From Gammaproteobacteria bacterium (GTDB taxonomy: Bacteria > Pseudomonadota > Gammaproteobacteria > Steroidobacterales > Foliamicaceae), in NCBI GenBank assembly GCA_009844425.1, contig VYBN01000011.1, positions 62,001-126,000 of the forward strand: 64,000 nt of DNA. The letters run 5' to 3'. A program made the translations under genes and the position numbers. Numbering within the stretch: position 1 is the first letter of the stretch; every line of letters starts with the position of its first letter. Shown here piece after piece: positions 29,601-54,925 of the stretch. The notes beneath the pieces are model-generated. The model did not search any database and was not told the DNA's origin. It saw only the letters and a list, made by a program, of their open reading frames with translations.

Positions 29601-29709
29601 GCCTTCACTTTGACCCTTTCTTCCGGGAATTTGTGAGCCATGGATGGCGGAACCAAGCCCCATGGATGGGTTCCATGCGTTTCCCGGAAGAAAGGGTCAA
29701 AGTGAAGGC
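29601..29709 (+). repeat. Covarying hairpin element, copy A
   Basis: Arms 29601-29629 and 29681-29709 are perfect 29-nt complements. The 51-nt centre contains GCCATGGATGGC and CCCATGGATGGG, each able to fold, and ends ATGCGT. It is preceded by CCGTA and followed by GAGGG. It lies between the convergent flavin oxidase and adaptor genes. Confidence 0.85.
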
Positions 29710-29731
29710 GAGGGTTGGCGACAAAGTCACG

Positions 29732-31117
29732 TTAGCCGATGCCGGGGAGGCCGCCGGCGCGCCGGCGCATCCAGTTGCGCAGGTTGGACTGCGATTCGTA
29801 CAGCCCCGCGCTGGGCAGCAGCAGAACCTCGTCGTTTTCTTCGAGCCCCGCAATCACGACCGAGTACTCGAAGTCGCTCAAGCCCGTGCGGACCCAGGCC
29901 GGCGACGGCCCGTCGTCGCGCATGACCAGCACCCAATATTCCGCCCTGAAGTCGTAATCCGGCTCCTGCCTCAGGAAGCGCCGGCCGGGATCGCTGCCCG
30001 GTCTCGCGCCGCCGGTCTCTTCCCGTTTCTTCATGACCGCGTCGTGGAGGTTGCCGTGCGGCCAGTTCAGCATGTGCGCCGTCGCCTCGATGTCGTCGAT
30101 CGTGCGCAGCGCCGCCATCGGCACGGCAGGCGCCTCGAGTTCCTCGGCGATCTTGATCTGAACCTCGGCGTTCATGCCCGGCAGCAGCAGCGAGTCGGGG
30201 TTGTCGAGCAGGATCAGGACCGAGAACATCGTGACGTTCTGTTCGACCACGGCCAGCGGCTCGATCTTCTCCACGTAACCGGTGAATTCGCGGGCGGGAT
30301 AGGCCGCCACCCTGACCTGCGCCTGCATGCCGGCGTTGATCTTGCCGATGTCGGTCTCGTCCACGCGGGTGCGCACCAGCACCCTGCGCAGGTCGGCCAT
30401 GCGCAACAGCAGCGTGCCGCCGCCCACGTCCTGGGTCGGCGAGGAAATGACCTGTCCGGGCTCGACATTGCGCTCGATGATGGTGCCGTCGATCGGCGCC
30501 AGCACGTCGGTGTCGTCCAGCGCGATGCGGGCGTTTTCCACGTCCACGCGGGCGCGAACCAGTTGCGCCTCGGCTTCCGAAAGCGACAGCGCCGTCTCTT
30601 CGAACTCGCTGTCGGTGATGGTGTTGTCGGCCACCAGCCTCTCCGCCCGCTCCATCTGCAGTTCGGCGATGGACTGGCGCGATTCCGCGGCCTTGAGCGC
30701 CGCCTCGGCCTGGGCCAGGTTGTTGGTGGGGATGCGCTTGTCGATCCGCACCAGAAGGGCGGAGCGCTCAACCGGATCGCCGTTCTCGGCGTTGATCGCG
30801 AGTATCTCGCCGGAAGCCTTGGATTTCAGTTCGACGGTGCGCAGCGGTTCGACCGCGCCGGCGGCCTCCACGAACACGCGGATGTCGCGAAGCTCCACGG
30901 GCGCCTGGTCGTAGGCCTGCGGTTCGGGCGCCGGTTCTTCGGCGCAGCCGGCCATGACCAGCACTAGCCCGAAAGCCGCGCCGACGCGCCAGAGCGTTCT
31001 CGTGGTCCCTCGCCGGTGCGTGATTCCCCCCTTGCGTGGAGACGCATGAACCCGTCCATGGGGCTCGGCGGCGGCTGTCCTGCCGCCGACGCTCCACGCA
31101 AAGGGGGATTCACGCAC
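29732..31117 (-). CDS. RND/MacA-type periplasmic adaptor lipoprotein
   Basis: About 460 residues. A lipoprotein signal ([20 protein letters not shown]) is followed by the membrane-fusion plan: a biotinyl-lipoyl half ([21 protein letters not shown]), a long coiled coil (~residues 100-180 of the mature protein), the second lipoyl half ([20 protein letters not shown]), and beta-barrel domains. It would link an inner-membrane ABC exporter to an outer-membrane channel. No ATG, GTG or TTG lies between hairpin element B and the signal peptide. The nearest usable start is the GTG at 31117 inside the element, which would add ~37 element-encoded residues. The true start is therefore uncertain. Confidence 0.8.
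31016..31117 (-). repeat. Covarying hairpin element, copy B
   Basis: Arms 31016-31041 and 31092-31117 pair over 26 nt with two mismatches. The centre, read on the minus strand, holds CGGCGGC/GCCGCCG as the first inner hairpin and ends ATGCGT. Outer flanks on the minus strand are GCTAAAGCC and GGCGAGGG, as in other copies. It overlaps the last codons of the ABC ATPase gene (supplying its TGA) and the only available start of the adaptor gene. Confidence 0.8.
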
Positions 31118-31814
31118 TGGCTTTAGCCGTGGGGCCGCTGTCGGCCGTGATTCTGCCGTCCAGCATCTCGATCCTGCGCCCGGCCCGCGCGGCGATGCCG
31201 GCGTCATGGGTAACCACGATCAGCGTGTGACCGTCAGTGTGCAGGGAATCGAACAATGTCAGGACTTCCGCTCCGGTCGCGGAGTCCAGATTACCCGTGG
31301 GTTCGTCCGCCAGCAAGATGCTCGGCCGGGTCACCAGCGCGCGCGCAATGGCCACTCTTTGCCGTTGCCCTCCCGACAGCTGGCTGGGCCGGTGCGCAAG
31401 ACGGTCGGCCAGCCCGACCCGCTCCAGGGCCTCGGTCGCCCGCTTCAGGCGTTCGCGGCGGCGCATCCGGGCATAGATCAGGGGCGCCTCCACGTTTTGC
31501 ACGGCGCTGCAGCGCTCCAGCAGATTGAAGGTCTGAAACACGAAACCCACCTGCCGGTTGCGCACCCTGGCCAGCTCCCGGCCGTTCATGCGCGACACGT
31601 GCACGCCGTTCAGCCAGTAGTCCCCCGCGGTGGGCGTCTCCAGGCAGCCGAGAAGGTTCATCAGCGTCGATTTTCCCGATCCGGACGGGCCCGTAACCGC
31701 CAGGTACTCGTTCGGCCGCACCGCCAGGCTCACATCGCGCAAGGCGACCACCGTAGCGCTTCCCATCCGGTAGGTCCGCGTCAGTTCCCGCGTACGTATC
31801 GCCGACGTGCTCAT
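31110..31814 (-). CDS. MacB/LolD-type ABC transporter ATP-binding protein
   Basis: 234 residues. Nucleotide-binding subunit with Walker [18 protein letters not shown] (~residue 40), Q-loop FVFQTFNLL, signature [16 protein letters not shown], Walker [14 protein letters not shown] and H-loop VVTHD. The closest type is the MacB/FtsE/LolD group, which pumps substrates through a periplasmic adaptor. The adaptor gene follows, but no membrane permease gene (four-helix MacB type) is present in the window. The last codons (AKASA and stop) lie inside hairpin element B, so the original C-terminus was probably slightly different. Confidence 0.93.
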
Positions 31815-31843
31815 CTACCCACCCTCGCTCCACCGCTACCGTA

Positions 31844-31949
31844 GCCCTTCATTGCCCCTTTCCTCTGGGGGCTTGTGAGCCAGGGATGGCGGAACCGAGC
31901 TCCATGGATGGATTTATGCGTCCCCCGGAGGAAAGGGGCAATGAAGGGC
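31844..31949 (+). repeat. Covarying hairpin element, copy C
   Basis: Arms 31844-31871 and 31922-31949 pair over 28 nt with one T/G pair (wobble in RNA). The 50-nt centre has GCCAGGGATGGC and TCCATGGATGGA and ends ATGCGT. The right flank GGGCGATATCGAAGCG closely matches that of copy E. It lies between the start of the ABC ATPase gene and the end of gatB. Confidence 0.85.
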
Positions 31950-31974
31950 GATATCGAAGCGCCATGTCATGCTG

Positions 31975-33402
31975 CTACAGGCGTTCACGCAGCATTTGAT
32001 TGACGAGCTGTGGGTTGGCCTGGCCCCGGGTGGCGCGCATGACCTGGCCGACCAGGAAACCGAACACGCGTGTGTTGCCTTCGCGGTACTGCCCGACCTG
32101 TTCGGCGTGCTTCTCCATGACTTCTTTGATGACGCCTTCAAGCGATCCGGCGTCCGATATCTGGCGAAGCCCGCGTTTCCTGATGACGTCGTCTGCGCTC
32201 CCTTCGCCCGCCCACATCGCCTGAAACACCTCCTTGCCCAGTTTGCCCGAAAGCGAACCGTCGCGCAGACGGGACAGCAACAATCCCAGCTCGCCGGCGC
32301 TCACCCGGCTGTCGGCGATGTCAAGCCCGTCGCGGTTCAGCGCGGCGGCCAGTTCTCCGCTGGTCCAGCGCGCCGCCAGCTGCATGTCCCCGCAGGCCTC
32401 GCCGGCGCTCTCGAAATAGTCGGCCGTCGCCCGGCTCTCGCACAGCCGCCGGGCGTCTTCGGCGGACAGACCGTAGTCCGAACGGAACCGGGCGCGGCGT
32501 TCGCGCGGCAGTTCGGGAAGAGTAGCGCGCAATTCCTCCAGAAAGCCCGGCTCCAGCGCCAGCGGCGGCAGGTCCGGGTCGGGGAAATAGCGATAATCGT
32601 TGGCCTGCTCCTTGTCGCGCATCGGCCGGGTCGTATCCAGCACCGAGTCGTAAAGCCGGGTTTCCTGCGCGATGGTTCCTCCCTGGCGCAGCACCTCGGC
32701 CTGGCGCAGGATTTCACAGTGCAGCGCGCGTTCCACGAACCGGAACGAATTGAGATTCTTGATTTCCGTGCGCGTCCCCAACTCCGTGTCCCCGGGCTTC
32801 TTCAGCGAGATATTAGCGTCGCAGCGCAACGAACCCTCCTGCATCGCGCCGTCGGAGATCCCGATCCAAGTGACGAGCTGGTGGATGCCGCGCATGCATG
32901 CGGAGGCCTCTTCCGGGGATTGCAGTTGCGGCTCGGTCACGATTTCGAGCAGCGGAGCGCCCGCCCGGTTCAGGTCCACGCCGGTGGCGTTGGGCATGGC
33001 GTCGTGCAGGGACTTTCCGGCGTCCTCCTCGAGATGCGCGCGGGTCAGTTCGATCTGCCGGGCCGGCGAGCCGGGAACGGCCACCTCCACCGAACCGCCG
33101 CTCACGATGGGCAGTTCGAACTGCGAAATCTGGTAGCCCTTGGGCAGGTCGGGATAGAAGTAATTCTTGCGCGCAAACACCGAACGGCGCGCGACCTCGC
33201 CGCCGGTCGCCAGTCCGAACCGGGCGGCCATGGCCACGGCCTCGCGGTTCGCGACCGGCAGCGTGCCCGGAAACCCGAGGTCGACCAGGCAGGCCTGGGT
33301 GTTGGGGCTGGCCCCGAACACCGTCGATGCGCCCGAGAACATCTTGCTGCGCGTGGCGAGCTGGACGTGTATTTCCAGCCCGATGACCACCTCGAATTCC
33401 AT
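31975..33402 (-). CDS. gatB: Aspartyl/glutamyl-tRNA amidotransferase subunit B
   Basis: 475 residues. It binds tRNA and activates the mischarged Glu or Asp for amidation to Gln or Asn. The N-terminal domain is conserved (FEVVIGLEIHVQLATRSKMF, FYPDLPKGYQISQFELPI, LEEDAGKSLHD). The kinase-like part contains NRAGAPLLEIVTEPQ and TRTEIKNLNSFRF, and the C-terminal YqeY-like helical domain ends LVNQMLRERL. The start at 33402 (MEFEVVIG) is 14 bp after the gatA stop. It is the last gene of gatCAB. Confidence 0.96.
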   Translation of the reverse strand: MEFEVVIGLEIHVQLATRSKMFSGASTVFGASPNTQACLVDLGFPGTLPVANREAVAMAARFGLATGGEVARRSVFARKNYFYPDLPKGYQISQFELPIVSGGSVEVAVPGSPARQIELTRAHLEEDAGKSLHDAMPNATGVDLNRAGAPLLEIVTEPQLQSPEEASACMRGIHQLVTWIGISDGAMQEGSLRCDANISLKKPGDTELGTRTEIKNLNSFRFVERALHCEILRQAEVLRQGGTIAQETRLYDSVLDTTRPMRDKEQANDYRYFPDPDLPPLALEPGFLEELRATLPELPRERRARFRSDYGLSAEDARRLCESRATADYFESAGEACGDMQLAARWTSGELAAALNRDGLDIADSRVSAGELGLLLSRLRDGSLSGKLGKEVFQAMWAGEGSADDVIRKRGLRQISDAGSLEGVIKEVMEKHAEQVGQYREGNTRVFGFLVGQVMRATRGQANPQLVNQMLRERL

Positions 33403-33416
33403 CGCGCGATCCCCCG

Positions 33417-34895
33417 TCAAGCCGAGCCGACGGGCGCCGACTCGCCGGGCGGCCACAGTCGATGCCAGTCCGTTTCCAGTTGGTAGGCGTGCGCGGCGCG
33501 CAATACGTCCACCTCGGCAAACGGCCGGCCCATGAGCTGCAATCCCACCGGCAGCCCGTCCACCGTACCGGCGGGAATCGAAATGGCGGGGATTCCGGCC
33601 AGGCTGGCGCCGATGGTATAGACGTCGTTCAAGTACATCTGGATCGGGTCGTCGATCTTCTCGCCGATCCCGAACGCCGGAGCGGGTGCGGTCGGTCCCG
33701 CCAGCAGGTCCACCGTTTCGAAGGCCTTGCCGAAATCGGCCGCGACCAGCCGGCGCACACGCTGCGCCTGCAGGTAATAGGCGTCGAAGTAACCCTTGGA
33801 CAGCACCCACCCACCCACCAGTATGCGGCGCCGGACCTCCTCGCCGAAGCCCGCCCGGCGGGTCCTCGTATACAGTTCCTCCAGACTGTCCGCGCCCGCT
33901 TCGCGGAGACCGAATCGCACGCCGTCGAAGCGCGACAGGTTGGACGAGCACTCGGCGGGCGCGACGACGTAATAGACCGGAACCGAGAGCGGCAGCCGCG
34001 GCAGCGAAACTTCGGTAACGGCCGCCCCCATGCCGCGCAGGGTTTCCATGTTGTCGACGAACACCTGCCGGCAGCGGGCGTCCAGGCCCTCGTCCATGAA
34101 CTCCTTCACGATACCTACGCGCACGCCCTTGAGCACATTGCCCTTCATACCCTGCAGGGAGCCCGAGTAGTCCTCGCCGTCGCGCTCCGCGCAGGTCGAG
34201 TCACGCGGATCGTGGCCGGCCATGCTGTCCAGCAGCAGGGCCGCGTCCTCGGCCGTGCGAGTAATAGAGCCGGCCTGGTCCAGGCTCGAGGCGAACGCGA
34301 TCATTCCGTAGCGCGAAATCCGCCCGTAGCTCGGCCGGAAGCCGGTCAGCCCGCACATGGCCGCCGGCTGGCGCACCGATCCGCCGGTGTCCGTGCCGGT
34401 CGCCGCCGGAACCAGGCCGGCGGCTACGGCGGCGGCCGATCCGCCCGACGATCCGCCCGGCGAGCGGGAAGGGTTCCAGGGATTGCGAACCGGCCCGGCA
34501 TAGCTCGTCTCGTTGGACGAGCCCATCGCGAATTCGTCCATGTTGGTCTTGCCGATCAGCAACGCCCCGTCCGCCGCCAGCCGTTCCACGACGGTGGCGT
34601 CGTAGGGCGGAACGAAGTTGTCCAGGATTCGCGATCCGGCCGTGGTGCGCACGCCCCGGGTACAGAAGATGTCCTTGTGGGCTATGGGTATCCCCGCCAG
34701 GGCCCCGCCGTTCGCGCGGCCGGCATCGGCCCGGCGCGCCCCGTCGAGCGCCGCTTCGCCGCACACGGTCAGGAACGCGTTCAGCTCGGGGTTCCGTTCC
34801 TCTATGCGGTCCAGGCATGCCTGCGTGAGTTCGACGCTGCCGATGCCGCCCGTGTCCAGCGCGCGTCGAAGACCGCTCAGGGAAAAGTCGATCAT
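33417..34895 (-). CDS. gatA: Aspartyl/glutamyl-tRNA amidotransferase subunit A
   Basis: 492 residues. Amidase-signature enzyme that releases ammonia from glutamine for GatB. The catalytic Ser-cisSer-Lys region is complete: IPIAHKDIFCTRGVRTTAGS (Lys), SPGGSSGGSAAAVAAGL, and GTDTGGSVRQPAAMCG. Length is standard. It lies 15 bp after gatC and 14 bp before gatB in a compact operon. Confidence 0.97.
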   Translation of the reverse strand: MIDFSLSGLRRALDTGGIGSVELTQACLDRIEERNPELNAFLTVCGEAALDGARRADAGRANGGALAGIPIAHKDIFCTRGVRTTAGSRILDNFVPPYDATVVERLAADGALLIGKTNMDEFAMGSSNETSYAGPVRNPWNPSRSPGGSSGGSAAAVAAGLVPAATGTDTGGSVRQPAAMCGLTGFRPSYGRISRYGMIAFASSLDQAGSITRTAEDAALLLDSMAGHDPRDSTCAERDGEDYSGSLQGMKGNVLKGVRVGIVKEFMDEGLDARCRQVFVDNMETLRGMGAAVTEVSLPRLPLSVPVYYVVAPAECSSNLSRFDGVRFGLREAGADSLEELYTRTRRAGFGEEVRRRILVGGWVLSKGYFDAYYLQAQRVRRLVAADFGKAFETVDLLAGPTAPAPAFGIGEKIDDPIQMYLNDVYTIGASLAGIPAISIPAGTVDGLPVGLQLMGRPFAEVDVLRAAHAYQLETDWHRLWPPGESAPVGSA

Positions 34896-34910
34896 GAGGG
34901 TCCGTTCCGG

Positions 34911-35237
34911 CTATTCGATGACTTTCGGCACGCGGTACAGGCCGTCCACGACATCCGGCGCACAGGCCTGGGCGTCCGCGCGCACGTCGGCCTCGGTCAC
35001 TTCGTCGGCGCGCAGGGGGAGCGCGAGATCCAGCGGATGCACCATGGGTTCCACGCCCCCGGTGTCGAGTTGCTGCAATACCTGCACGAATCCGATGATC
35101 CGGCGCAGGGTGCCGACCAGCTCTTCCTTCTCGCCTTCCTCCAGCGCAAGGCGGGTCAGTTGCGCCACGCGCAGCAGTTCCTCGTCCGAGAAATCATCGG
35201 CCGGCTGAGGGTCCCTGGGTGTCTGGAGGTTGTTCAT
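34911..35237 (-). CDS. gatC: Aspartyl/glutamyl-tRNA amidotransferase subunit C
   Basis: 108 residues, slightly longer than usual because of a polar N-terminal extension (NNLQTPRDPQPADD). The core is typical: LLRVAQLTRLALEEGEKEEL, then LQQLDTGGVEPMVHPLDLAL with the conserved VxPM-like segment. It wraps around GatA and stabilises the complex. It is the first gene of the operon and is transcribed divergently from mreB. Confidence 0.93.
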   Translation of the reverse strand: MNNLQTPRDPQPADDFSDEELLRVAQLTRLALEEGEKEELVGTLRRIIGFVQVLQQLDTGGVEPMVHPLDLALPLRADEVTEADVRADAQACAPDVVDGLYRVPKVIE

Positions 35238-35329
35238 TTCGCGGCGAATACTATAGGGCTGTTTTGCCCGATCTGCTATGATTTGGGGGATTTCAAGGGA
35301 GTGTCCGCTCCCGGGGATGCGCTGCGCCG
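35238..35329. promoter_or_regulatory. Divergent gatC / mreB promoter region
   Basis: The 92 bp spacer holds TGCTATGAT (extended -10, TATGAT at 35277-35282) facing mreB and a TATAGT (minus strand, 35250-35255) facing gatC. No clear -35 was found for either, so the assignment rests on the -10 hexamers and position. The run of T and A here contrasts with the GC-rich surroundings. Confidence 0.45.
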
Positions 35330-36397
35330 ATGAGCAATTTTGTCCGTGGTTTATCTGAGCGGCTGGCCGTGGATCTGGCCATAGATCTGGGCACCGCCAA
35401 CACCCTTGTGTACGCCGGCGGAAGGGGAATTGTCGTGAACGAACCTTCCATAGTCGCGCTTCGACGCGGCGCCGACATCCGTTCGGGCGGTGTGCTGGCC
35501 ATCGGCACAGAAGCCTTCGGCATGCTGGGACGCACGCCGCGCGACCTGCAAATCGTCATGCCCTTGAAGGATGGCGTCATCGCCAACTACGAAGTCGCCG
35601 AGCAGATGCTCAGGCATTTCATGATCAAGGCTTTGGGCAGTGGTTTCTTCCGCCCGGCGGTCCGGCGTCTGGTGATCTGCGTGCCTCATGGCGCCACGCC
35701 GGTGGATCGCCGGGCCATTGAGGAATCGGCCCGCGACGCGGGCGCGCGCGAGGTGTTCGTTGTGGACGAGCCCATGGTCGCGGCCATCGGCGCGGGGCTG
35801 CCGGTGCACCGCCCCTGCGGCAACATGGTGGTGGACATCGGCGGCGGCACCTCCGAAGTCGCGGTCCTGTCGATGTCAAGCGTGGTCTATGCGCGCTCCG
35901 TGAAGGCTGGCGGAACCCGCATGGACGAGGCCATCGTGCAGTACGTGCGGCGCAACCACGGCATGTCGATCGGGATGAGTCAGGCGGAAACGATCAAGCG
36001 GGAGGTGGCCAGCGCTTACCCGGGCGAGGAAATTGGGGAGATCAAACTCCATGGGCGCAGCCTGTCGCGCGGCCTGCACTCGCAGTTCACGCTGAACAGC
36101 AACGAGGTGCGTGACGCCCTTAACGATACGCTGGAGGAAATCGTGCAGGCGGTGCTGGATGTCCTCTCGCATACCCCGCCGGAACTGGGCGCCGACATCA
36201 GTCAGCGCGGCCTGGTGCTGGCCGGCGGCGGCGCGCTGCTGCCGAAGCTGGATGCGCTCATTCGGGAACGCGCCGCAGTGCCCGCTTTCCTGGCCGAAGA
36301 TCCGTTGACCTGCGTTGTGCGTGGTTGCGGTCACCTGGTTGAAGCCCGGGGCATGGTGGGTTTTGCCAGCCGGATCAACGGCGCGCAGTGGACTTGA
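35330..36397 (+). CDS. mreB: Rod-shape determining protein MreB
   Basis: 355 residues. Actin-like ATPase that guides the elongasome. Phosphate-1 motif AIDLGTANTLVYAGG (~residues 17-31), phosphate-2 region NMVVDIGGGTSEVAVLSMS, adenosine motif GLVLAGGGALLPKLDAL, and the family signature VPHGATPVDRRAIEES are present. It heads the + strand envelope cluster mreBCD-mrdA-rodA-mltB-rlpA-dacA-lipB, and mreC follows 18 bp later. Confidence 0.97.
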   Translation: MSNFVRGLSERLAVDLAIDLGTANTLVYAGGRGIVVNEPSIVALRRGADIRSGGVLAIGTEAFGMLGRTPRDLQIVMPLKDGVIANYEVAEQMLRHFMIKALGSGFFRPAVRRLVICVPHGATPVDRRAIEESARDAGAREVFVVDEPMVAAIGAGLPVHRPCGNMVVDIGGGTSEVAVLSMSSVVYARSVKAGGTRMDEAIVQYVRRNHGMSIGMSQAETIKREVASAYPGEEIGEIKLHGRSLSRGLHSQFTLNSNEVRDALNDTLEEIVQAVLDVLSHTPPELGADISQRGLVLAGGGALLPKLDALIRERAAVPAFLAEDPLTCVVRGCGHLVEARGMVGFASRINGAQWT

Positions 36398-36415
36398 GGG
36401 GTCCGATGTCCTAGT

Positions 36416-37333
36416 GTGACCCAGGAGACCGCAACGCTTACGACGGATCGCTTCCGAAGGCGAAAAGGTCCGGCCCGGGCGGGCCAATGCCTCCTGATCT
36501 GCCTTTTGAGTTTCGGTCTGCTGGTAGTCGAGGCGAACATTCCCGCCGTCCAGAAGGTGCGCGGGATCGGCGAATTGATGCTTGTGCCGGTTCAGGCGGC
36601 GGTGCGCCTCGTTTCCGGCGGTTTTCGCGGTGTGCAGGGCTATTTCCGCGATCAGTCGTCGCTGATGAGTGAAAACCAGGAGATGCGCACGCAACTGTTG
36701 CGGCAGGAGGTGGATCTGCAGCAAATGGCGTCGCTGAAATCCGAGAACGAAGTGTTGCGTTCACTGCACGAGCTGAACGCCCAGCTCGGCTCGGAAAATC
36801 TCACGGCCGAGACCCTGCCTGGAAATCCGGATCCCTCCCGTCACCGCGTGACCCTGAACAAGGGCAGCCGGCAGGGAGCGTATGTCGGTCAGCCGGTAGT
36901 CGGTTCCGGCGGGGTGGTCGGCCAGGTCACGCGCGATTACCTGGTCACTTCGGAGGCGCTGTTGATCAGCGACGCCAGTCACGCTCTGCCGGTGATGTTC
37001 GAGCGAACGGGACTGCAGGCGATCGCGCTGGGCACCGGCCGCAGGGATCACCGGCTGCTGCTTCCCTTTATGCCGTTCCATGCCGATGTGATCCGGGGAG
37101 ATACGGTGGTCAGCTCCGGGGCCGGCGGCCTGTTTCCGGCGGGATTGAGGGTCGGCGTGGTGGAGAATGTTCGTAACTCTTCGGGCGAGGCTTTCCTGGA
37201 GGCGTTCGTGTCGCCTTCCGCCAACCTCGAAAGTCTCCGCCAGGTTCTGTTGCTGCGTTCCCAGGCGCGGCCGCCGGGACGGGAAACGGCGCCGGGCGCG
37301 GAGTTGCCCGGCGCCGCGGCTGCGGGATCATGA
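36416..37333 (+). CDS. mreC: Rod-shape determining protein MreC
   Basis: 305 residues from a GTG. One N-terminal membrane helix (CLLICLLSFGLLVVEANIP) leads into a periplasmic coiled coil (SENQEMRTQLLRQEVDLQQM). A beta-domain follows with RVTLNKGSRQGAYVGQPVVG and DTVVSSGAGGLFPAGLRVG, both characteristic of MreC. The tail is Pro/Gly-rich. MreC activates the PBP2-RodA synthase encoded downstream. The stop overlaps the mreD start by 4 bp. Confidence 0.95.
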   Translation: MTQETATLTTDRFRRRKGPARAGQCLLICLLSFGLLVVEANIPAVQKVRGIGELMLVPVQAAVRLVSGGFRGVQGYFRDQSSLMSENQEMRTQLLRQEVDLQQMASLKSENEVLRSLHELNAQLGSENLTAETLPGNPDPSRHRVTLNKGSRQGAYVGQPVVGSGGVVGQVTRDYLVTSEALLISDASHALPVMFERTGLQAIALGTGRRDHRLLLPFMPFHADVIRGDTVVSSGAGGLFPAGLRVGVVENVRNSSGEAFLEAFVSPSANLESLRQVLLLRSQARPPGRETAPGAELPGAAAAGS

Positions 37334-37785: not shown

Positions 37786-37819
37786 GGCCTGCCCGCGCCA
37801 GGTTACGCGGAGCCCGCGC

Positions 37820-40803: not shown

Positions 40804-40810
40804 TCAGTCC

Positions 40811-47384: not shown

Positions 47385-47429
47385 GTATCAGCCCCAGAAA
47401 CCGCCGTGATCCACGCACCGCCTGCCGGA

Positions 47430-47539
47430 GCAGTTTCCTCCCCCCCGTCCTTCAGGGAGTGTTGGAGGCAGGGATGCCGGAACCAAGCTCAATGGATGGA
47501 TTTATGCGTCTCCCGGAAGGACGGGGGGGAGGAAACTGC
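47430..47539 (+). repeat. Covarying hairpin element, copy D
   Basis: Arms 47430-47459 and 47510-47539 pair over 30 nt with one mismatch. The centre holds GGCAGGGATGCC (inner stem reversed relative to copies A and C) and ends ATGGATTTATGCGT. It lies at the 5' end of surA: the ATG at 47496 within the centre is the most probable surviving start of that frame. The TAAGCC/GGCGA flanks of other copies are absent here. Confidence 0.85.
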
Positions 47540-48839
47540 GCACCCGCGCACCCTGCGCGGCGCGCTGGTGCTGGTGTGTCTGGCGGTGGTTGCGGGGCCG
47601 GCGTGGGGGCAGCTCAGCGATGATGGCGAGTTTCTGGAAGGCATCGTGGCCGTGGTCAATGACGGCGTTGTCCTGACCAGTGAACTGGACCAGGAACTGG
47701 CTGGCGTGCGCGCGAACATTCGCGCCCAGGGCCTCAGGTCACCGCCCTCGGCGGTGCTCGAATCGCAGGTGCTGGAGCGGCTGGTTCTGCGGGAAATACA
47801 ACTGCAGCGCGCCAGACGCCTGGGCATCGAGATTTCCGACGAACAGGTCAACCGGGCGCTCGGCTTCGTGGCCCAGCAGAACGGGGTCGAGCTGAGCGAT
47901 CTTCCCGACGCGCTGGCCGATCAGGGCATCGAGTACGCCCGCTACCGCGAGGAGCTCAGGGCGCAGATCGAACTGGACACGCTCAGGCAACGCGACGTCG
48001 TTGCGCGGGTGTACCTCAACCCAAGGGAAGTGGACGATTTCCTGCGCGGCGCCGAAGCCGGAGAGGAGGCGAACCGGGAGTACCTGGTGTCGCACATTCT
48101 GATCGGCACGCCGCTCAACGCCACCGCGGGTCAGCGCGACGCGGCCCGCGAGCGCGCGGAGAGGTTGCGTGAACGCGTGCTGGAAGGGGAGAACTTCGCC
48201 GAACTGGCGATCGCCTATTCGGAGGCGCAGAATGCGCTGCAGGGCGGCAGCCTGGGCTGGCGCAAACGCAATGCGCTGCCCACGGCATTCGTCGCGCATG
48301 TTCTTCAGCTCGAACCCGGCGGCGTGGCCGAGCTGATCACCACGGGCAGCGGGGTGCACGTGGTGCGCCTGGACGAAACGCGCGGCGGGGACCCCATCAT
48401 TCAGGAGCAGTGGGAACTCAGGCACATACTGCTTCAGCCGAACGAGATACGCGACGACGACGCGACCCGCGGCGAGATCGCCGAGATTCGCGGGCAGATC
48501 CTGGCCGGTGAGAGCTTCGGCGCCCTGGCCCGCGCTTACTCCGCCGACCCCGGTTCCGCCGGCGAAGGCGGCATGCTCGGTTGGGTTTCTCCCGAGGACC
48601 TCGATCCCGCATTCGCCGCCGGCGTGGCGGAACTTGAGGGCGAAGAGATCAGCGAACCCATACGCAGCTCCTTCGGATGGCATATCGCGCAACGTTCCGG
48701 TACCCGCATGCAGGACGTGAGCGAGGACGTGCGCCGGCAGCGCGCCGCGCTGGCCTTGCGGGAACGCAAGGTGCAGGAGGAAACCCAGCTTTGGCTGCAA
48801 AGGCTGCGGGCCGAGGCGTTCGTGGAATACAAGAAGTAG
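47496..48839 (+). CDS. surA: Periplasmic chaperone / peptidyl-prolyl isomerase SurA
   Basis: 447 residues from the ATG at 47496; GTG 47406 would add 30 residues, all or mostly encoded by the hairpin element. The signal TLRGALVLVCLAVVAGPAWG is followed by the N-terminal chaperone domain starting GIVAVVNDGVVLTSELDQEL. Two parvulin domains follow (YLVSHILIGTPLN at ~215 and WELRHILLQPNE at ~320), then the C-terminal helix. SurA escorts outer-membrane proteins such as LptD, encoded just upstream. The first ~17 residues (MDLCVSRKDGG) are element-derived in either case. Confidence 0.92.
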   Translation: MDLCVSRKDGGEETAHPRTLRGALVLVCLAVVAGPAWGQLSDDGEFLEGIVAVVNDGVVLTSELDQELAGVRANIRAQGLRSPPSAVLESQVLERLVLREIQLQRARRLGIEISDEQVNRALGFVAQQNGVELSDLPDALADQGIEYARYREELRAQIELDTLRQRDVVARVYLNPREVDDFLRGAEAGEEANREYLVSHILIGTPLNATAGQRDAARERAERLRERVLEGENFAELAIAYSEAQNALQGGSLGWRKRNALPTAFVAHVLQLEPGGVAELITTGSGVHVVRLDETRGGDPIIQEQWELRHILLQPNEIRDDDATRGEIAEIRGQILAGESFGALARAYSADPGSAGEGGMLGWVSPEDLDPAFAAGVAELEGEEISEPIRSSFGWHIAQRSGTRMQDVSEDVRRQRAALALRERKVQEETQLWLQRLRAEAFVEYKK

Positions 48840-48857
48840 CAAGGGCCTGCAAGCACA

Positions 48858-49856
48858 ATGCGCTGCCCTAAACTGGCGGTCAGCGTGGGCGAACCGGCCG
48901 GAATCGGGCCGGACATCGTAATCAAGGCGGCCCGCGAACTGAGCCGGTTCAATACCGTGCTGCTCGCCGATCCGCGTGTGCTGCGCGAACGCGCGGAAAT
49001 GCTGGACCGCGACTTCCGGGCGCGTTCGTACGACCCCGGAGATCGGGCGCGCGGCCTGAGCGTCGCGCACATGCCGTTCGCTCATTCATGCCGGGCGGGC
49101 CGGGCGGATGCCCGCAACGCGCCGGCCGTGCTGGCGGCCCTGGAGCGGGGAGCGAAGGGGTGCCTGAGCGGCGAGTTCGATGCGCTCGTGACCGGACCGG
49201 TCAACAAGGCGCTGATGCGCAAGGCCGGACTCGATTTCATGGGACATACGGAATACCTGGCGCGGCTCAGCGGCGCACCCATGCCGGTCATGCTGCTGGC
49301 GGGCAAGACGGGGTCCGGTCGCACGCCGCTGAGGGTGGCCCTGGCCACGACCCATATTCCGTTGAGCGCGGTGCCCGGGGCCGTCACCCGCGAGCGCCTG
49401 GCGGCCGTCCTCGAAGTGCTGGTGCAGGGACTGAAGCGCGATTTCGGAATAGAGAAACCGCGGGTGGCGGTTCTCGGTCTCAATCCACACGCCGGGGAGG
49501 GTGGCGAACTGGGCGCCGAGGACCGCGATGTCGTGGCGCGGGCGATCGCGGAATTCGGCGATCCCGGCGTGACCGGTCCCTGGCCGGCCGACACGGCCTT
49601 CACGCGGGCCAATCTCGCCGGACAGGACGCGGTGCTGGCGATGTATCACGATCAGGGCTTGCCGGTGGTCAAGCACGCCGGTTTCGGCGCGACGGTGAAC
49701 GTGACGCTTGGTCTGCCGTTCGTGCGCACGTCCGTGGACCATGGCACGGCGTTCGATCTTGCCGGCACCGGGAAGGCCGACGAAGGCAGCCTTGTCCGGG
49801 CCGTGGAGGCGGCGGCGCGCATGGTGCGGCGCAGGACCGGTCACAAGCCGCAATGA
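48858..49856 (+). CDS. pdxA: 4-hydroxythreonine-4-phosphate dehydrogenase
   Basis: 332 residues. Pyridoxal phosphate pathway enzyme, metal- and NAD-dependent. Start AVSVGEPAGIGPDIVIKA, the metal-binding GHTEYLARLSG and TTHIPLSAVPGAVT, NPHAGEGGELGAEDRDVV, and the C-terminal MYHDQGLPVVKHAGFGATVN and TSVDHGTAFDLAG are all conserved. The stop overlaps the rsmA start (ATGA). Confidence 0.97.
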   Translation: MRCPKLAVSVGEPAGIGPDIVIKAARELSRFNTVLLADPRVLRERAEMLDRDFRARSYDPGDRARGLSVAHMPFAHSCRAGRADARNAPAVLAALERGAKGCLSGEFDALVTGPVNKALMRKAGLDFMGHTEYLARLSGAPMPVMLLAGKTGSGRTPLRVALATTHIPLSAVPGAVTRERLAAVLEVLVQGLKRDFGIEKPRVAVLGLNPHAGEGGELGAEDRDVVARAIAEFGDPGVTGPWPADTAFTRANLAGQDAVLAMYHDQGLPVVKHAGFGATVNVTLGLPFVRTSVDHGTAFDLAGTGKADEGSLVRAVEAAARMVRRRTGHKPQ

Positions 49857-50623
49857 AGCGGCGGCCCAGGCTGGGGCAGCACTTCCTTACCGACGCCTCG
49901 GTCATTCAGCAGATCATCTCGACGGCGGCGCCCGGCGCCGGCGAACACTTCGTGGAGATCGGTCCGGGTCGCGGTGCGCTGACCGGGCCCCTGCTCTCGC
50001 GGGGCGCGGTCGTTCACGCCGTCGAGATCGATCCGGCGCTGGCGCAGGAACTGCGCGAGCGTTTCCCCCACGAGCGGCTGAGCGTGCACCTGGCGGACGC
50101 GCTGGAGTTCGATTATTCGGCGCTGGAGGGCATCGGGGTTCCCGATGCGCGCCTGCGCCTGATCGGCAATCTGCCCTATTACCTGAGCACGCCCCTGCTG
50201 TTCCGCCTGCTTCAGAGCGCGGCCGGGTTCCGCGACATGACCGTCATGCTGCAGCGCGAGGTGGCCGAGCGGCTGTGCGCGTCTCCGGGCAGCGGCCGCT
50301 ACGGCCGCCTGTCGGTCACGGCGGCGGCCCGCTGCCACGCCGAACCGTGCTTTTCCGTTGCGCCCCGCGCGTTCGAACCCCGCCCCAGGGTGCATTCCAT
50401 GGTGGTCAGGCTGACGCCGAATTCGCGCTACCGCATCCGCCGCCCCGACGCCTTCGATCGCGTGGTGCGCCAGGCCTTCTCGCAGCGCCGAAAGACCATC
50501 GCCAACGCCCTGCGCGGCCTGGCGAACAAAGAGCAGATCACCGCCGCCGGCATCGACCCCACCCAACGCCCCGAACAAATCCCCGTGAAAGCGTATCTAC
50601 GCCTTTCCGAGCACCTCGACTAG
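49853..50623 (+). CDS. rsmA: 16S rRNA dimethyladenosine transferase RsmA
   Basis: 256 residues. It dimethylates the two adenines in helix 45 of 16S rRNA (positions 1518/1519 in E. coli). Motifs: PRLGQHFLTDASV, FVEIGPGRGALTGPLL (SAM binding), and the catalytic NLPYYLSTPLLFR. The C-terminal RRKTIANALRG is typical. It is coupled to pdxA and followed 13 bp later by hairpin elements F and E, then by convergent apaH. Confidence 0.97.
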   Translation: MKRRPRLGQHFLTDASVIQQIISTAAPGAGEHFVEIGPGRGALTGPLLSRGAVVHAVEIDPALAQELRERFPHERLSVHLADALEFDYSALEGIGVPDARLRLIGNLPYYLSTPLLFRLLQSAAGFRDMTVMLQREVAERLCASPGSGRYGRLSVTAAARCHAEPCFSVAPRAFEPRPRVHSMVVRLTPNSRYRIRRPDAFDRVVRQAFSQRRKTIANALRGLANKEQITAAGIDPTQRPEQIPVKAYLRLSEHLD

Positions 50624-50635
50624 CCGCAGTCCCTC

Positions 50636-50744
50636 GGTTTCTCTTGCACCCCGGTTCCGGGAACCGCCAGCAAGCACATCCCTGTGGGCTCGGCGTCGGC
50701 ATCCATGCCTCCGACGTTCCCGGAACAGGGGCGCAAGAGAAACC
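50636..50744 (-). repeat. Covarying hairpin element, copy F
   Basis: Arms 50636-50663 and 50717-50744 pair over 28 nt with two mismatches. On the minus strand the centre has the inner hairpin GGCATGGATGCC, extended by CGTCGG/CCGACG, and a second small hairpin CACA/TGTG. The outer flank GCTAAAGG matches the consensus. It is the most divergent copy, separated by 34 bp from copy E in the opposite orientation. Confidence 0.75.
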
Positions 50745-50778
50745 TTTAGCTGACGGCGCCGCGAGCGTGTCGGCGTAA

Positions 50779-50885
50779 GCCCTACTTTGGCCCCCTTCCT
50801 CTGGGGGTATTGGAGGCAGGGATGCCGGAGCAAGCTCCATGGATGGATTCATGCGTCCCCCGGAGGAAGGGGGCCAAAGTAGGGC
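50779..50885 (+). repeat. Covarying hairpin element, copy E
   Basis: Arms 50779-50807 and 50857-50885 pair over 29 nt with one T/G pair at the same place as in copy C. The centre has GGCAGGGATGCC and TCCATGGATGGA and ends ATGCGT. Left flank GTAA, right flank GAGATCGAAGCG. It lies between rsmA/element F and the stop of convergent apaH. Confidence 0.88.
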
Positions 50886-50897
50886 GAGATCGAAGCG

Positions 50898-51668
50898 TCA
50901 AACGCAGGGCAGGCTGACGCACTGGGGTGGGCCATCCAGCCGGACCGCGGAGAGCGCCCTGCCCCAGACGCAGCCCGAATCCAACGCAATATGCCGATCG
51001 GTAACGAAGCACCCCAGCGCCGACCAGTGCCCAAACACGACCCGGCACCCGGACGGCAGTCTCCCCGCACGCGTGAACCAGGGAGCGAGATAGGGCGGCT
51101 GCCCGCCGGGCGGCCCCTTGTAGGAAAAATCCAGCCGGCCCCGCGCATCCACCATCCGCATCCGCGTGAAGGCGTTGACGATCATGCGCAGGCGCCGGGT
51201 TCCCGATAGCCCGTCCTGCCAGCAGTTGGGCGCGTTTCCGTACATCTCGGCCAGGAAGTCCCGATAGTGCGCCCCCCGCAGAACGCTCTCCACCTCCGCC
51301 GCTCGCGCCAGCGCCTGCTCCAGGCCCCAGCCGGGCAATACCCCGGCATGCACCAGCAGGCAGTTCAGGTCCCGGTCGAAATGCGCCAGCGGCCGCCGGC
51401 GCAGCCATTCGGCATGCGCGCTCACCTCGGAGTACCGTTCGTGGGCCTGTTGCGCCAGCCAGTGCAGGTCGTGGTTGCCGAGCACGATGATGGCCGAGTC
51501 CTCCAGTTCGCGAACCCGCGTCAGCACGCCCTCCGAGTCCGGCCCGCGGTTGACCAAGTCTCCGCAGAACCAGAGCCGGTCGCGCCCCGGCTCGAACCCG
51601 ATCCGGTTCAGCAGCGCATTCAGGGGTTCGAGACACCCCTGCACATCCCCCACCGCCCATACCGCCAC
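50898..51668 (-). CDS. apaH: Bis(5'-nucleosyl)-tetraphosphatase, symmetrical
   Basis: 256 residues. It hydrolyses Ap4A to two ADP. Metallophosphatase motifs: VWAVGDVQGCLEPL, FCGDLVNRGPDSEGVL, VLGNHDLHWLA, LVHAGVLPGW and VVFGHWSALG. In E. coli it follows apaG on the rsmA strand; here apaH and apaG face rsmA, as if that block had been inverted. Hairpin elements border it on both sides (F and E, H). Confidence 0.96.
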   Translation of the reverse strand: MAVWAVGDVQGCLEPLNALLNRIGFEPGRDRLWFCGDLVNRGPDSEGVLTRVRELEDSAIIVLGNHDLHWLAQQAHERYSEVSAHAEWLRRRPLAHFDRDLNCLLVHAGVLPGWGLEQALARAAEVESVLRGAHYRDFLAEMYGNAPNCWQDGLSGTRRLRMIVNAFTRMRMVDARGRLDFSYKGPPGGQPPYLAPWFTRAGRLPSGCRVVFGHWSALGCFVTDRHIALDSGCVWGRALSAVRLDGPPQCVSLPCV

Positions 51669-51692
51669 TTAGCCCACCCTGAAAGCAGTGCT

Positions 51693-51824
51693 CCGCCTGT
51701 CCCTGCACCGCCCCTTCCGGGAGACGCATGAATCCATCCATGGAGCTTGGTTCGTTCGCGCCGGGACAGCGGCGCTCACCCCTGCCTCCAACACTCCCGG
51801 AAGGGGCGGTGCAGGGACAGGCGG
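51693..51824 (-). repeat. Covarying hairpin element, copy H (enlarged centre)
   Basis: Arms 51693-51723 and 51794-51824 are perfect 31-nt complements, the longest of the set. On the minus strand the 70-nt centre starts TGTTGGAGGCAGGGGTGAGC and ends GATGGATTCATGCGT. It carries about 20 extra bases where other copies have the short inner hairpin (GATGCC). It lies between the start of apaH and the stop of apaG. Confidence 0.85.
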
Positions 51825-51832
51825 GCAACCAC

Positions 51833-52204
51833 TCAGTGGAGGACGCCGGGGGTCTGAAGGCGGAAGATGGGTATCGGCGCCTTGAAGTCCTGGCCGCCGT
51901 CGGTGACCATGCCGTAGCTGCCCTGCATCGTCCCGAACGGCGTGTCGATAATCGCGCCGCTCGTGTAGCGGTGGCTCTCGCCCGGGAGCAGCCGGGGCTG
52001 CTCGCCCACCACGCCGTCCCCGAACACCTCCTCCACGTGCCCGTTGCCGTCGGTGATGATCCAGTGCCGCGTCAGCAGCCGGGCGGGCTCCCCGCCCCGG
52101 TTCAAGATCGTGATCGTGTAGCTGAATACGTAGCGGTCGCCCTGCGAATCCTGCCCCAGGTAGGCCGGCTCAACCTCGACGTGAATGTCCTCGCCCGAGA
52201 TCAT
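51833..52204 (-). CDS. apaG: ApaG protein
   Basis: 123 residues with the immunoglobulin-like ApaG fold: DIHVEVEPAYLGQDSQ, FSYTITILNRG, LLTRHWIITDGNGHVEEVFG, GVVGEQPRLLPGESHRYTSG and GTMQGSYGMV are all conserved. It is involved in Co2+ resistance and Mg2+ efflux in enterobacteria through an unclear mechanism. The start overlaps the stop of the DUF1838-like gene (ATGA), an unusual operon partner. Confidence 0.95.
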   Translation of the reverse strand: MISGEDIHVEVEPAYLGQDSQGDRYVFSYTITILNRGGEPARLLTRHWIITDGNGHVEEVFGDGVVGEQPRLLPGESHRYTSGAIIDTPFGTMQGSYGMVTDGGQDFKAPIPIFRLQTPGVLH

Positions 52205-53151
52205 TCTTCCGGCTCGACCGACGCGGGCGTTCGGTTCTTCATGAATTCCACCATGTCGTCCCTCACCTCGGTCCAGTTCTCGAGGTCGAACATTTCCGGC
52301 GCGTGCTCCTCCAGGGTGCCGCGCAGGTTGGCGGGCATCTCGTCGAGACTGTCCAGTTTGCAGCCGTAGCCTCGGGAGAGCTGGCGCCCGGGCCGCTGGC
52401 CCATCAGCATCCAGTGGTTCCAGTTCAGGGTTTCCTGGTAGTGGCTGATTGCCGGCGCCCTGGACAGTTCCGGGTTCTCGACGTCGGCGAGTTCCGCCAT
52501 CAGGAACATGAACGAGTCCCAGTGAAAGATGGGCCCCACCGAGGCCTTGGGCCAGACTTCCGGACGCAGCGGGTTGGGAAACCTGAATTGCGAGCGAATC
52601 GGAATGAACAGCCTGCCGCCCACCGTCCACCATTCCATGTTCTTCGGCTTCATCGTTGCCGTCTCGTCGGTGATCGTTCCTTCCAGCGTGTTCTCGACGG
52701 TGATCGGCCCGGTGAAGTAGTGCTGGACTTCGACCGTTTCTCCGGTGTAGATGTTGTCCCACTCTTCGATCACCTCGTCGGTGTCGAAGCGGGTAAAGAG
52801 CGCCGTTTCGTTCATCGTGGCCACGTACTTGTGCTCTTCCGCCTGCCGCCAGCGGGTCACGTTGTAGTTGATCATGCTGAACAGCGGCTCAAGGTTGCCC
52901 TCGTGGACATAGCCCCAGACGTGACCGCGCGAGACGCGGTGCACCGTTTCCTCGGCCAGAGACCCGAACACCTTGACCCGTGCGCGAAAGCGCGCAACGG
53001 GGTCGTTGAGGTCCAGCGGTTCGCGTGGAACGCCTTGCTCGGCCGCGCATCCGGACAGCGCCGGCGCGCCCAGCGCGCCCGCTCCCAGGCCCTTCAGGAT
53101 CGTGCGCCTGTCGAGGCCGGATTGGTTCACGGGGTCTGGCTTGTTGCTCAT
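52201..53151 (-). CDS. DUF1838-family Tat-exported protein
   Basis: 316 residues from ATG 53151, preceded by AGGAG. The Tat signal LDRRTILKGLGAGALGAP is followed by a Cys-containing lipobox-like SGCAAEQ. The body matches DUF1838: VWGYVHEGNLEPLFSMINYN, HKYVATMNETALFTRFDTDE and NWNHWMLMGQRPGRQLSRGY. The family is frequent in marine and soil bacteria and has no known function. It is coupled to apaG downstream and lies 24 bp after thyA, an odd position among housekeeping genes. Confidence 0.85.
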   Translation of the reverse strand: MSNKPDPVNQSGLDRRTILKGLGAGALGAPALSGCAAEQGVPREPLDLNDPVARFRARVKVFGSLAEETVHRVSRGHVWGYVHEGNLEPLFSMINYNVTRWRQAEEHKYVATMNETALFTRFDTDEVIEEWDNIYTGETVEVQHYFTGPITVENTLEGTITDETATMKPKNMEWWTVGGRLFIPIRSQFRFPNPLRPEVWPKASVGPIFHWDSFMFLMAELADVENPELSRAPAISHYQETLNWNHWMLMGQRPGRQLSRGYGCKLDSLDEMPANLRGTLEEHAPEMFDLENWTEVRDDMVEFMKNRTPASVEPEE

Positions 53152-53174
53152 CTTGTTCTCCTGTCTGATGTACT

Positions 53175-53969
53175 TCATACCGAAATAGGCGCCGGAATAT
53201 GGGGGTGCGGATCGTAGCCGATCAGCTCGAAGTCGGTTTCCACGTAGTCGTCGATGGATACTCGTCCCGCCCTGATCCTGAGTTCGGGAAGGGGGCGCGG
53301 TTCGCGGGACAGTTGCTCGCGTGCCTGTTCCCAGTGGTTGCTGTAGAGGTGGCAGTCGCCGCCGGTCCAGACGAAATCTCCGGGTTCCAGCGCCGTCTGT
53401 TCCGCCATCATGGAAAGCAGCAGGGCATACGATGCGATATTGAAGGGAACGCCCAGGAACAGGTCGGCGCTGCGCTGGTAAAGCTGGCCCGACAGCCTGC
53501 CGCCGCTGACGTGCAGTTGCAGCAGCATGTGGCAGGGCGGAAGTTTCATTCGCGGGATCTCGGCTACGTTCCAGGCGTTGATGATGATTCTTCGGGAGTG
53601 AGGGTCGTTTCGGATCATTTCCAGGGCCTGTTCCACCTGGTCGATCGCGCCGCCGTTGCCGTCCGGCCAGCGCCGCCATTGCGCCCCGTAAACCGGCCCC
53701 AGGTTGCCGTCCTCGTCGGCCCACTCGTTCCAGATCTTCACGCCGCGCTCCTGCAGCCAGCGCACGTTGGTGCCGCCGCGCAGGAACCACAGCAGTTCGA
53801 CCGCGATCACCCGCAGCGGAAGCCTCTTGGTGGTGAGCATCGGAAAGCCGGCGGCCAGGTCGAAGCGGAGCTGCCGCCCGAACAGCGCCCGGGTGCCCGT
53901 GCCGGTGCGGTCGCGGCGCTCGGTTCCGGTTTCCAGCACCTCCTCGAGAAGACTGAGGTATTGCCGCAT
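53175..53969 (-). CDS. thyA: Thymidylate synthase
   Basis: 264 residues, the standard short-form length. It methylates dUMP to dTMP with methylenetetrahydrofolate. The catalytic Cys is in [13 protein letters not shown]. Also present: [20 protein letters not shown], the dUMP-binding [33 protein letters not shown] and the end [13 protein letters not shown]. It follows lgt as in enterobacteria. Confidence 0.97.
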
Positions 53970-53982
53970 GCGCCTATACCGG

Positions 53983-54765
53983 CTACGGCGCGCGCCGGGC
54001 GAGCAGCCACAGGCCGAAGCCGATCATCGGCAGGCTCAAAAGCTGTCCCATGGTCAGCCAGTTGAAGGCGAGGTAACCGAGGTGCGCGTCCGGCACGCGC
54101 AGGAACTCCACCAGGAGCCGGAAAATCCCGTAGCCGGCCAGGAACAATCCGGTGGCGCGTCCCAGGCCGCGCCGCGCGCCGGACGGCAAGGGCCGCGCCG
54201 TATACCACCAAAGCACGACAAACAGCACCAGTCCCTCGAGAAAAGCCTCGTACAACTGAGTTGGATGCCGGCCGACGCCGTCCACGATGAATGCCCACGG
54301 CGCATCGCTGGGCTTGCCCCAGAGTTCGCCGTTGATGAAGTTGCCGATACGCCCGGCGCCCAGGCCGATCGGCACCAGCGGAACGACGAAATCCGCGGTT
54401 TCGACAAACGTCCTGGAGTGCTTGCGGGCGAACAGGAGAACGGCGGCGCACACGCCCAGCAGCCCGCCGTGAAACGACATGCCGCCTTCCCAGATCCGTA
54501 CGATATAGAGCGGATCGTCGAGTATCTGCTGCCAGCCGTAAAAGAGGAGGTAGCCCAGGCGCCCGCCCGCGATCACGCCCAGGCACGAATAGAAGATCAG
54601 GTCCTGCACCATGATCGGCGTGAACGTGCTGCCGGGCCGGCGGGCCTGCCGGTGCGCGAGCCACCAGGCGGCGACGAAGCCGAACAGGTACATCAACCCG
54701 TACCACCGTATCGCCAGCGACCCGATGCGCAGGGCCACGGGATCGAACTGCGGATATTCGATCAT
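53983..54765 (-). CDS. lgt: Prolipoprotein diacylglyceryl transferase
   Basis: 260 residues with seven membrane helices. It attaches diacylglycerol to the lipobox Cys of prolipoproteins, such as RlpA and the adaptor encoded in this window. Signature [14 protein letters not shown] with the essential Arg, Asn and Glu; also [15 protein letters not shown] and [16 protein letters not shown]. It precedes thyA and starts 60 bp from hairpin element G. Confidence 0.96.
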
Positions 54766-54825
54766 CTCGCCCGAAGTCTAGCAGCCTCTATCGACGCGCA
54801 TCGCCTGGCCTGCTCACCCGCTAAA

Positions 54826-54925
54826 GCCTGTTCTCCTACCCCTCCCTGTGGGGAGCGTTGGAGCCAGGATGGCGGAACCGAGCCAAGGATGGCGCCTCCC
54901 CACAGGGAGGGGTAGGAGAACAGGC
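54826..54925 (+). repeat. Covarying hairpin element, copy G
   Basis: Arms 54826-54855 and 54896-54925 are perfect 30-nt complements. The centre is the shortest (40 nt) and has GCCAGGATGGC and GCCAAGGATGGC as inner hairpins. Left flank GCTAAA, right flank GAGG. It lies between lgt and the third VOC gene. Confidence 0.87.

Follow-up and report, generated by a model that had tools for sequence, protein, structure and literature searches.

The analyzed window, a stretch of 64,000 nt (positions 62,001 to 126,000 of contig VYBN01000011.1, assembly GCA_009844425.1) from a gammaproteobacterium whose genus consists of sponge symbionts, carries eight hairpin elements located between genes, among them those encoding an amine oxidase, an HlyD-type protein, an ABC transporter, GatB, LptD and SurA (Table 1). 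Each element is formed by two arms that pair with each other and by a centre with A(N)GGA motifs on one strand (hereafter the GGA strand). A first-pass annotation of the window had described eight hairpin elements of one design, and all of them were recovered by a motif-blind hairpin scan (span < 260, score >= 15), which yielded nine hairpins in the 64 kb, the ninth being a small unrelated stem-loop. The measured arm mismatches ranged from 0 to 3 instead of the 0 to 2 given in that annotation, and the start of the second element, placed at 31016, was corrected to 31012. At a score >= 18, 23 hairpins were found in the real 201-kb contig versus none in three Markov shuffles. The eight elements are almost certainly members of one dispersed family, from which a perfect 18-bp stem with a 2-nt loop at 55515-55552 stands apart.

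Table 1. Hairpin elements of the window (coordinates within the 64,000 nt), their genomic setting and the congeners from which they are absent.
Element	Position	GGA strand	Arms	Arm length (bp)	Mismatches	Centre	Centre length (nt)	Setting	Absent from
1	29601..29709	+	29601-29629 / 29681-29709	29	0	29630-29680	51	convergent, flanked by the stop codons of the amine oxidase gene and the HlyD-type gene	
2	31012..31121	-	31012-31041 / 31092-31121	30	3	31042-31091	50	HlyD-type gene on one side, ABC-transporter gene on the other	
3	31844..31949	+	31844-31871 / 31922-31949	28	1	31872-31921	50	ABC-transporter gene on one side, GatB gene on the other	
4	47430..47539	+	47430-47459 / 47510-47539	30	1	47460-47509	50	lptD / surA intergenic	G003, G004, G005, G007, G008
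5	50636..50744	-	50636-50664 / 50716-50744	29	2	50665-50715	51	left half of doublet	
6	50779..50885	+	50779-50807 / 50857-50885	29	1	50808-50856	49	right half of doublet	
7	51693..51824	-	51693-51723 / 51794-51824	31	0	51724-51793	70		G001, G002, G003, G007
8	54826..54925	+	54826-54855 / 54896-54925	30	0	54856-54895	40		G001, G002, G003, G004, G007

The anatomy of the family was characterized on a wider set of 170 elements, 89 of them on contigs, in which three misfits were recognized: two other repeats (G000C50 161200 and G000C19 227265) and a true element whose arm had been shortened by the scan (G006C9 86406). The cleaned set comprised 167 elements (86 on contigs); the misfits are still included in the sets used for arm length, placement and orientation, antisense bias, doublets, the changes in 25 ortholog pairs and the G-U counts, and dropping them alters no conclusion. 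Arm pairing extended over 28-31 bp in most copies. The inner four or so arm pairs were conserved (GGAG/CTCC-like) and the outer arm was variable, in agreement with the copy-specific arms reported earlier: among the G000 copies, a set that included two unrelated hairpins, the outer 19 nt of the arms shared a mean identity of 0.42 (0.34 when shuffled), versus 0.73 for the 47-53-nt loops. The centre was represented by several subtypes of 39-54 nt, plus the 70-nt form at 51693, and contained two A(N)GGA motifs on one strand, spaced 17-20 nt, in 163 of 167 copies; the inner stems varied by subtype, yet were self-complementary in most. The motif pair was also found in hairpins chosen without regard to it. 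Strong hairpins (score >= 18) numbered 92 in 1.63 Mb of contig stretches from six genomes of the genus; the loop measured 34-62 nt in 85 of them, and of those 85, 83 (one of them another repeat) carried two A(N)GGA on one strand, versus 1159 of 20000 length-matched random stretches; in the two-motif hairpins, the second loop base was often G or missing instead of Y. We infer that the centre is the functional part of the element, and that its GGA motifs would be read as a single strand by some protein.

The conserved tail ATGGATT(T/C)ATGCGT, previously ascribed to most copies, was exact in four of the eight window elements (31844, 47430, 50779 and 51693), was carried with one extra base by 29601, and was absent from 50636 and 54826, while a 20-nt core at <= 3 mismatches was detected in five of the eight (0.00 expected). 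Copies in the window genus were partly conserved at the outer arm end (GCC) and in the bases beyond it, and the element is therefore probably longer than its arms; GCTAAA or GTA was observed before the arms, and GAGGAAGC or GGATCGAAGCG after them. The centre of element 7 has a longer GC-rich insert in place of one GGA loop. The same longer-centre variant (61-71 nt, with the GC-rich insert replacing one GGA hairpin loop) was seen in L006, L025, L028, L030 and at G006C9 197209, the insert having a similar form across several copies.

The search for further copies that the first-pass annotation had proposed did not come up empty, either in the own genome or in its relatives. The own genome contained 93 matches to a 17-nt core at <= 2 mismatches (none for the reversed control), and 34 whole elements in 512 kb, corresponding to approximately 200 in the 3.03-Mb assembly if density is even. 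At one mismatch, the core was present in all eight congeners versus only one of 49 other genomes of the order. Of 274 genomes sampled from the class, 48, one of them the own genome, were matched by a covariance model built from 61 copies (R1, whose E-values are rough), with at most 14 candidates scored per genome. Forty R1 matches from 17 genomes, picked among the better-scoring ones and not at random, all showed the same build (arms of 23-51 bp with 0-6 mismatches, a centre of 46-54 nt, and at least two A(N)GGA), and the R1-positive genome G294 held 20 copies in 400 kb. Exact core matches, among those listed, belonged to records named Colwellia, Reinekea, Desulfuromonas, Malonomonas and others, and R1 matched 17 of the 18 tried loci having such matches. 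Judged by these searches, the family is real and abundant, and older than the genus, being spread over many genera. In a plasmid search with a 2.6-kb query, the 10 of 192 matches listed covered the ABC-transporter part and none fell on an element.

The family resembles the TwoAYGGAY RNA (Rfam RF01731; Weinberg et al. 2010, PMC2864571), with which it appears to share an outer stem around two hairpins with (A)YGGAY-like loops. TwoAYGGAY has been treated in print as an RNA whose external stem is poorly conserved, whereas the family analyzed here is distinguished by high copy number, gain and loss, and concerted arms; no published report of high copy number or mobility of TwoAYGGAY was found in open-access main texts, supplements, Rfam pages and subscription journals lying outside the search. 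Only one of the eight window copies, element 1, matched RF01731 at E <= 1 (29594-29716, 30.4 bits, E 0.43), below the gathering threshold of 43 bits, as were the scores of L022 (33.5 bits) and L007 (31.0 bits), and G000 gave no match at E <= 0.001 under strict filters with nine candidates scored. In Reinekea, the locus L067:4697-4808 scored 45.2 bits with RF01731, above gathering, and 90.6 bits with R1, and an alignment of its centre to those of the window genus gave at least 42 matching positions out of about 50. R1 recovered three of 20 RF01731 loci, and only G129, G241 and G273 were R1-positive among the 17 RF01731-positive genomes. Since its scores remained below gathering, the window family was filed as a relative of TwoAYGGAY and not as a member: by score the two are not one family, but relatives linked by intermediates. 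In the cultured strain Reinekea marinisedimentorum (L067 4389-4808), three TwoAYGGAY-like hairpins with unrelated arms were found in tandem.

The intergenic placement in either orientation noted earlier was maintained in the larger dataset, copies being often < 50 nt from a stop codon. Based on a crude gene caller, 28 of 84 elements (two of which were afterwards dropped as misfits) lay between convergent genes, 7 between divergent and 45 between tandem genes, with 4 inside predicted genes, versus 94 convergent, 164 divergent and 521 tandem gaps in the intergenic background from the same caller. Elements between tandem genes were evenly distributed (22 sense, 23 antisense), showing no orientation preference with respect to genes, and no clear strand preference relative to GC skew was detected (over seven contigs, the G-rich strand was the GGA strand in 48 of 85). 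Of 17 close pairs, 15 were in -+ (head-to-head) order, with 29-48 nt between the two copies; elements 5 and 6 form such a doublet, with a gap of 34 nt.

The 219 site comparisons with congeners included 83 occupied and 136 empty sites. The site of element 2 was filled in G006 and G003, and only an arm remnant was retained in G007. Losses by internal deletion were observed at three places (G007 115165, G003 95897 and G006 28701), and an arm-like stretch was present in the empty allele in three of 138 comparisons, all at G007 115165, where it resembles a deletion remnant. Empty alleles are thus nearly always armless, which indicates that in the window genus the arms were not copied from target sequence. 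The dispersed copies are very probably gained and lost through a mobile process. The three readings put forward at first (trans-mobilised miniature element, RNA structure, chromosomal structural site) can be only partly separated: the miniature element is favoured by sites present in some genomes and absent from others and by dispersal in many genera, while the RNA structure gains a known relative in TwoAYGGAY, but the arms evolve unlike an RNA stem. For a chromosomal structural site, the analysis covered orientation, which showed no preference relative to genes. What is new with respect to TwoAYGGAY is that the family is a DNA repeat in many copies, with sites filled in some species and empty in others, frequent head-to-head doublets, no gene-orientation preference and concerted arms.

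The concerted change of the arms was evident both among copies and among orthologous sites. In the 61-copy alignment, two-sided changes were detected in 26 of 28 stem pairs, adding up to 567 two-sided versus 15 one-sided (G-U) cells. With the inner nine pairs set aside, 33 of 3409 arm pairs (1.0%) were G-U, versus 31 of 587 (5.3%) for 28 tRNAs taken from the contigs that carry the elements (Fisher p 1e-10). Where orthologous sites had an arm identity >= 0.70, double compensatory changes numbered 72, with 28 single changes and 5 of other kinds, across 25 pairs. These pairs are not independent, nor are the 32 of the cleaned recount, in which 12 sites were counted once each. Taken once per site, the paired changes were 19 transitions against 23 transversions, while the flanks showed 990 and 1010; this flank-like ratio gives no sign of a path through G-U, which would yield transitions.

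The centres changed independently of the arms at several sites. A clean inversion of the centre was found at two of the 12 sites with arm identity >= 0.70: element 7 and its G006 ortholog have the same arms but for one base (31/31 on one side), with the G006 centre inverted and 50 nt long, and the centre of element 4 is inverted relative to G001, G002 and G006, that of G001 being a 96%-identical reverse complement. The centre subtype was swapped while the arms persisted at 31844 (element 3), where the G006 ortholog has the same arms and a different centre, and at 50779 (element 6), where other centre types occupy the orthologous site in G006 and G002. In element 8 the centre was instead 39/40 identical to that of G006, while both of its arms had been rewritten.

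Arm homogenisation and spacer inversion have been described as signatures of template switching, with transversions favoured in bacteria (PMC8604942), and template switching has been proposed to restore or maintain hairpins, and also for RNA stems, with compensatory change accompanied by loop inversion as the strongest and very rare support (PMC8794818). The elements resemble the repeats of the first report in their arms made identical and spacer inverted, and the RNA stems of the second in their multi-base compensatory changes and loop inversions; as described there, the cases are short repeats in yeast genes and rRNA or microRNA stems, whereas here a single dispersed family with 28-31-bp arms and 40-70-nt spacers is affected at many sites. 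Concerted arms, few G-U pairs, a flank-like ratio and inversions of the centre fit template switching better than RNA selection, and the arms are probably kept mainly by this mechanism.

On balance, we favour the interpretation of the family as a non-autonomous dispersed DNA hairpin repeat, a relative of TwoAYGGAY, whose arms change in concert at the DNA level. The concerted pattern is directly observed, and template switching is the mechanism to which it points. The centre would offer, on one strand, two A(N)GGA motifs, each within a short inverted repeat, that may be bound single-stranded by a protein. At replication, the nascent strand would fold back or cross to the sister template, one arm being copied from the other, so that a mutation in one arm would be erased or transferred, and the centre would occasionally be flipped. 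The arms would in this manner drift or be rewritten without loss of pairing, and would become copy-specific for that reason. Copies settle mostly by stop codons, presumably because they do little harm there.

Several observations weigh against this interpretation. When single sequences were folded at minimum energy, apical loops contained both GGA motifs in only 48 of 170 elements, one motif in 54 and none in 68. Only two inversion sites are clean, the other inverted pairs having arm identities of 0.38-0.67 or matching a doublet neighbour (two sites). Wholesale site changes were also observed (165883 vs 13710; 145356 vs 33963), which could as likely reflect loss and new insertion, or exchange between copies, as arm-to-arm copying. 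With regard to mobility, no dominant flanking direct repeat indicative of a target-site duplication was found, none being seen by eye in 16 filled/empty alignments, and no mobilising enzyme was identified. Moreover, mismatches were strand-biased: non-pairing cells on the GGA strand comprised 49 G.T versus 13 C.A (p 5e-6) and 59 purine-purine versus 11 pyrimidine-pyrimidine. Outside the inner nine pairs the values were 33 G.T versus 7 C.A, and 15 purine-purine versus 8 pyrimidine-pyrimidine, the latter difference not being significant (p 0.13 with 7). The G.T bias was also present in copies antisense to both neighbours (G.T 8, C.A 2). This bias is not predicted by template switching alone, and suggests that the GGA strand either is under selection, mattering as a single strand, or is subject to strand-specific mutation; it would fit a mobilisation intermediate or an RNA alike.

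The elements could alternatively be transcribed CsrA-binding RNAs (sponges or mRNA tails) with an outer stem under ordinary compensatory selection, an explanation that we consider unlikely. TwoAYGGAY was predicted to bind CsrA in 2014 (PMC4333381), and the 17-20 nt spacing of the A(N)GGA motifs suits the range over which CsrA bridges sites, reported as 10-63 nt with an optimum > 18 (PMC7652899). In addition, some centres carry UACAGGGAUGU, matching the CsrA consensus RUACARGGAUGU obtained by systematic evolution of ligands by exponential enrichment (PMC7652899), csrA is present in all nine genomes of the genus, with Leu4 and Arg44 retained in the protein (for their role, see PMC7652899), and the excess of G.T over C.A on the GGA strand points in the same direction. 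However, that excess persists in antisense copies, the orientation between tandem genes is even according to the crude caller, G-U pairs are five times rarer in the arms than in tRNA stems, the centre is inverted at two sites, and folding of the GGA loops is imperfect. Four of the 48 R1-positive genomes (G065, G125, G156 and G251) also lacked a csrA match, among them G251, which is 98% complete and whose three fetched copies hold both GGA motifs. Co-occurrence with csrA was discarded as evidence, since the gene was detected in 17 of 17 RF01731-positive genomes but in 235 of 274 of the class anyway, and was missing from those four R1-positive genomes. Binding of the GGA loops by CsrA in the cell is a separate prediction, possible though rather doubtful. 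GGA motifs paired at bridging distance, and predicted to sit in short hairpins, recall CsrB, RsmY and RsmZ, yet each of these is one small-RNA gene, whereas the family comprises hundreds of dispersed copies in both orientations, known from sequence alone. A literature search on conserved loops with compensatory stems found none.

An even bolder version of the DNA-repeat interpretation, which we regard as speculative and unlikely to hold in full, would see a transposable element with only a recognition centre that rebuilds or continually rewrites its own perfectly matching arms by DNA synthesis; what is inherited would then be the shape of the hairpin and not its sequence, and dispersal would spread CsrA-type GGA site pairs across many genera.

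Improbable, in turn, is that the arms arise anew at every insertion, whether through an inverted duplication of the flanking DNA or through snap-back synthesis, the element proper being the centre and a few inner bases. This would agree with the copies of G294, whose arms (28-49 bp, 15 of 20 mismatch-free) are near-unrelated, the 20 nt beside the inner GTGAC being 0.33 identical (0.28 when shuffled), though the centres share 0.83 identity. Nevertheless, some G294 arms form a related subgroup by eye, and in the window genus, to which the test of arm origin on empty alleles applies (the nearest G294 congener is about 70% identical), an arm was held by the empty allele only at the single G007 locus mentioned above, and an inverted duplication of target DNA was accordingly rejected as the source of the arms there. 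The partial conservation of the outer arm end and its neighbouring bases further indicates that, in this genus, the arms travel with the element.

An ordinary family of repetitive extragenic palindromic (REP) sequences moved by a REP-associated tyrosine transposase (RAYT, a Y1 HUH transposase) is highly improbable. The elements resemble REPs, bacterial interspersed mosaic elements and REP doublets forming hairpins (REPINs) in being short, palindromic, extragenic and present in many copies with inverted-order doublets; the head-to-head arrangement recalls REPINs in particular, and dispersal occurs by the 3' ends of genes. The transposase domain PF01797 was found in 38 of 47 other R1-positive and 14 of 17 RF01731-positive genomes, counts that stand without a class-wide background rate. 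REP stems, however, are conserved in sequence within a family, whereas in this family conservation lies in the centre and the stem varies, so that the initial judgement that these are not ordinary REPs is upheld. The lack of a RAYT, noted at first for the window, now extends to the genus, PF01797 being absent from nine of its nine genomes searched (a control found the domain in E. coli), as well as from nine of the 47 other R1-positive genomes, including the copy-rich G294. With no Y1 transposase in the genus or in G294, a RAYT is not needed at present.

Other identities were rejected: the conserved terminal inverted repeats and target-site duplication that define miniature inverted-repeat transposable elements contrast with variable arms and no duplication; intrinsic terminators are contradicted by the lack of a T run (to the right of 70 elements, read on the GGA strand, T never exceeds 0.29 at any of the first 16 positions); and Rfam microRNA matches were taken as chance matches to any long hairpin.

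If the family is indeed a DNA repeat with concerted arms, relatives of a candidate RNA and predicted CsrA sponge would be multicopy DNA repeats, and the covariation of TwoAYGGAY should then not be taken as proof of RNA function. The many copies would also represent natural replicates of the upkeep of hairpins by template switching, of the rate of arm turnover, and of the frequency with which a 50-nt spacer flips, at known sites of related genomes. Should CsrA bind the GGA loops, a few hundred extra binding sites would have been laid down by a mobile repeat in some bacteria.

Dispersed hairpin repeats unrelated to the family were also encountered (L025 269-533, L055 1762-2030, G006C9 74441-74639, G000C50 146534 and 161200, and G000C19 227265), some of them with near-perfect inverted ends of about 33 bp lying approximately 200 nt apart. 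Finally, the surA frame of the window (47406-48839) is open upstream through element 4, and an automatic caller could take the repeat as the N-terminus of SurA; the SurA_N domain match begins only at residue 78 of the extended frame.

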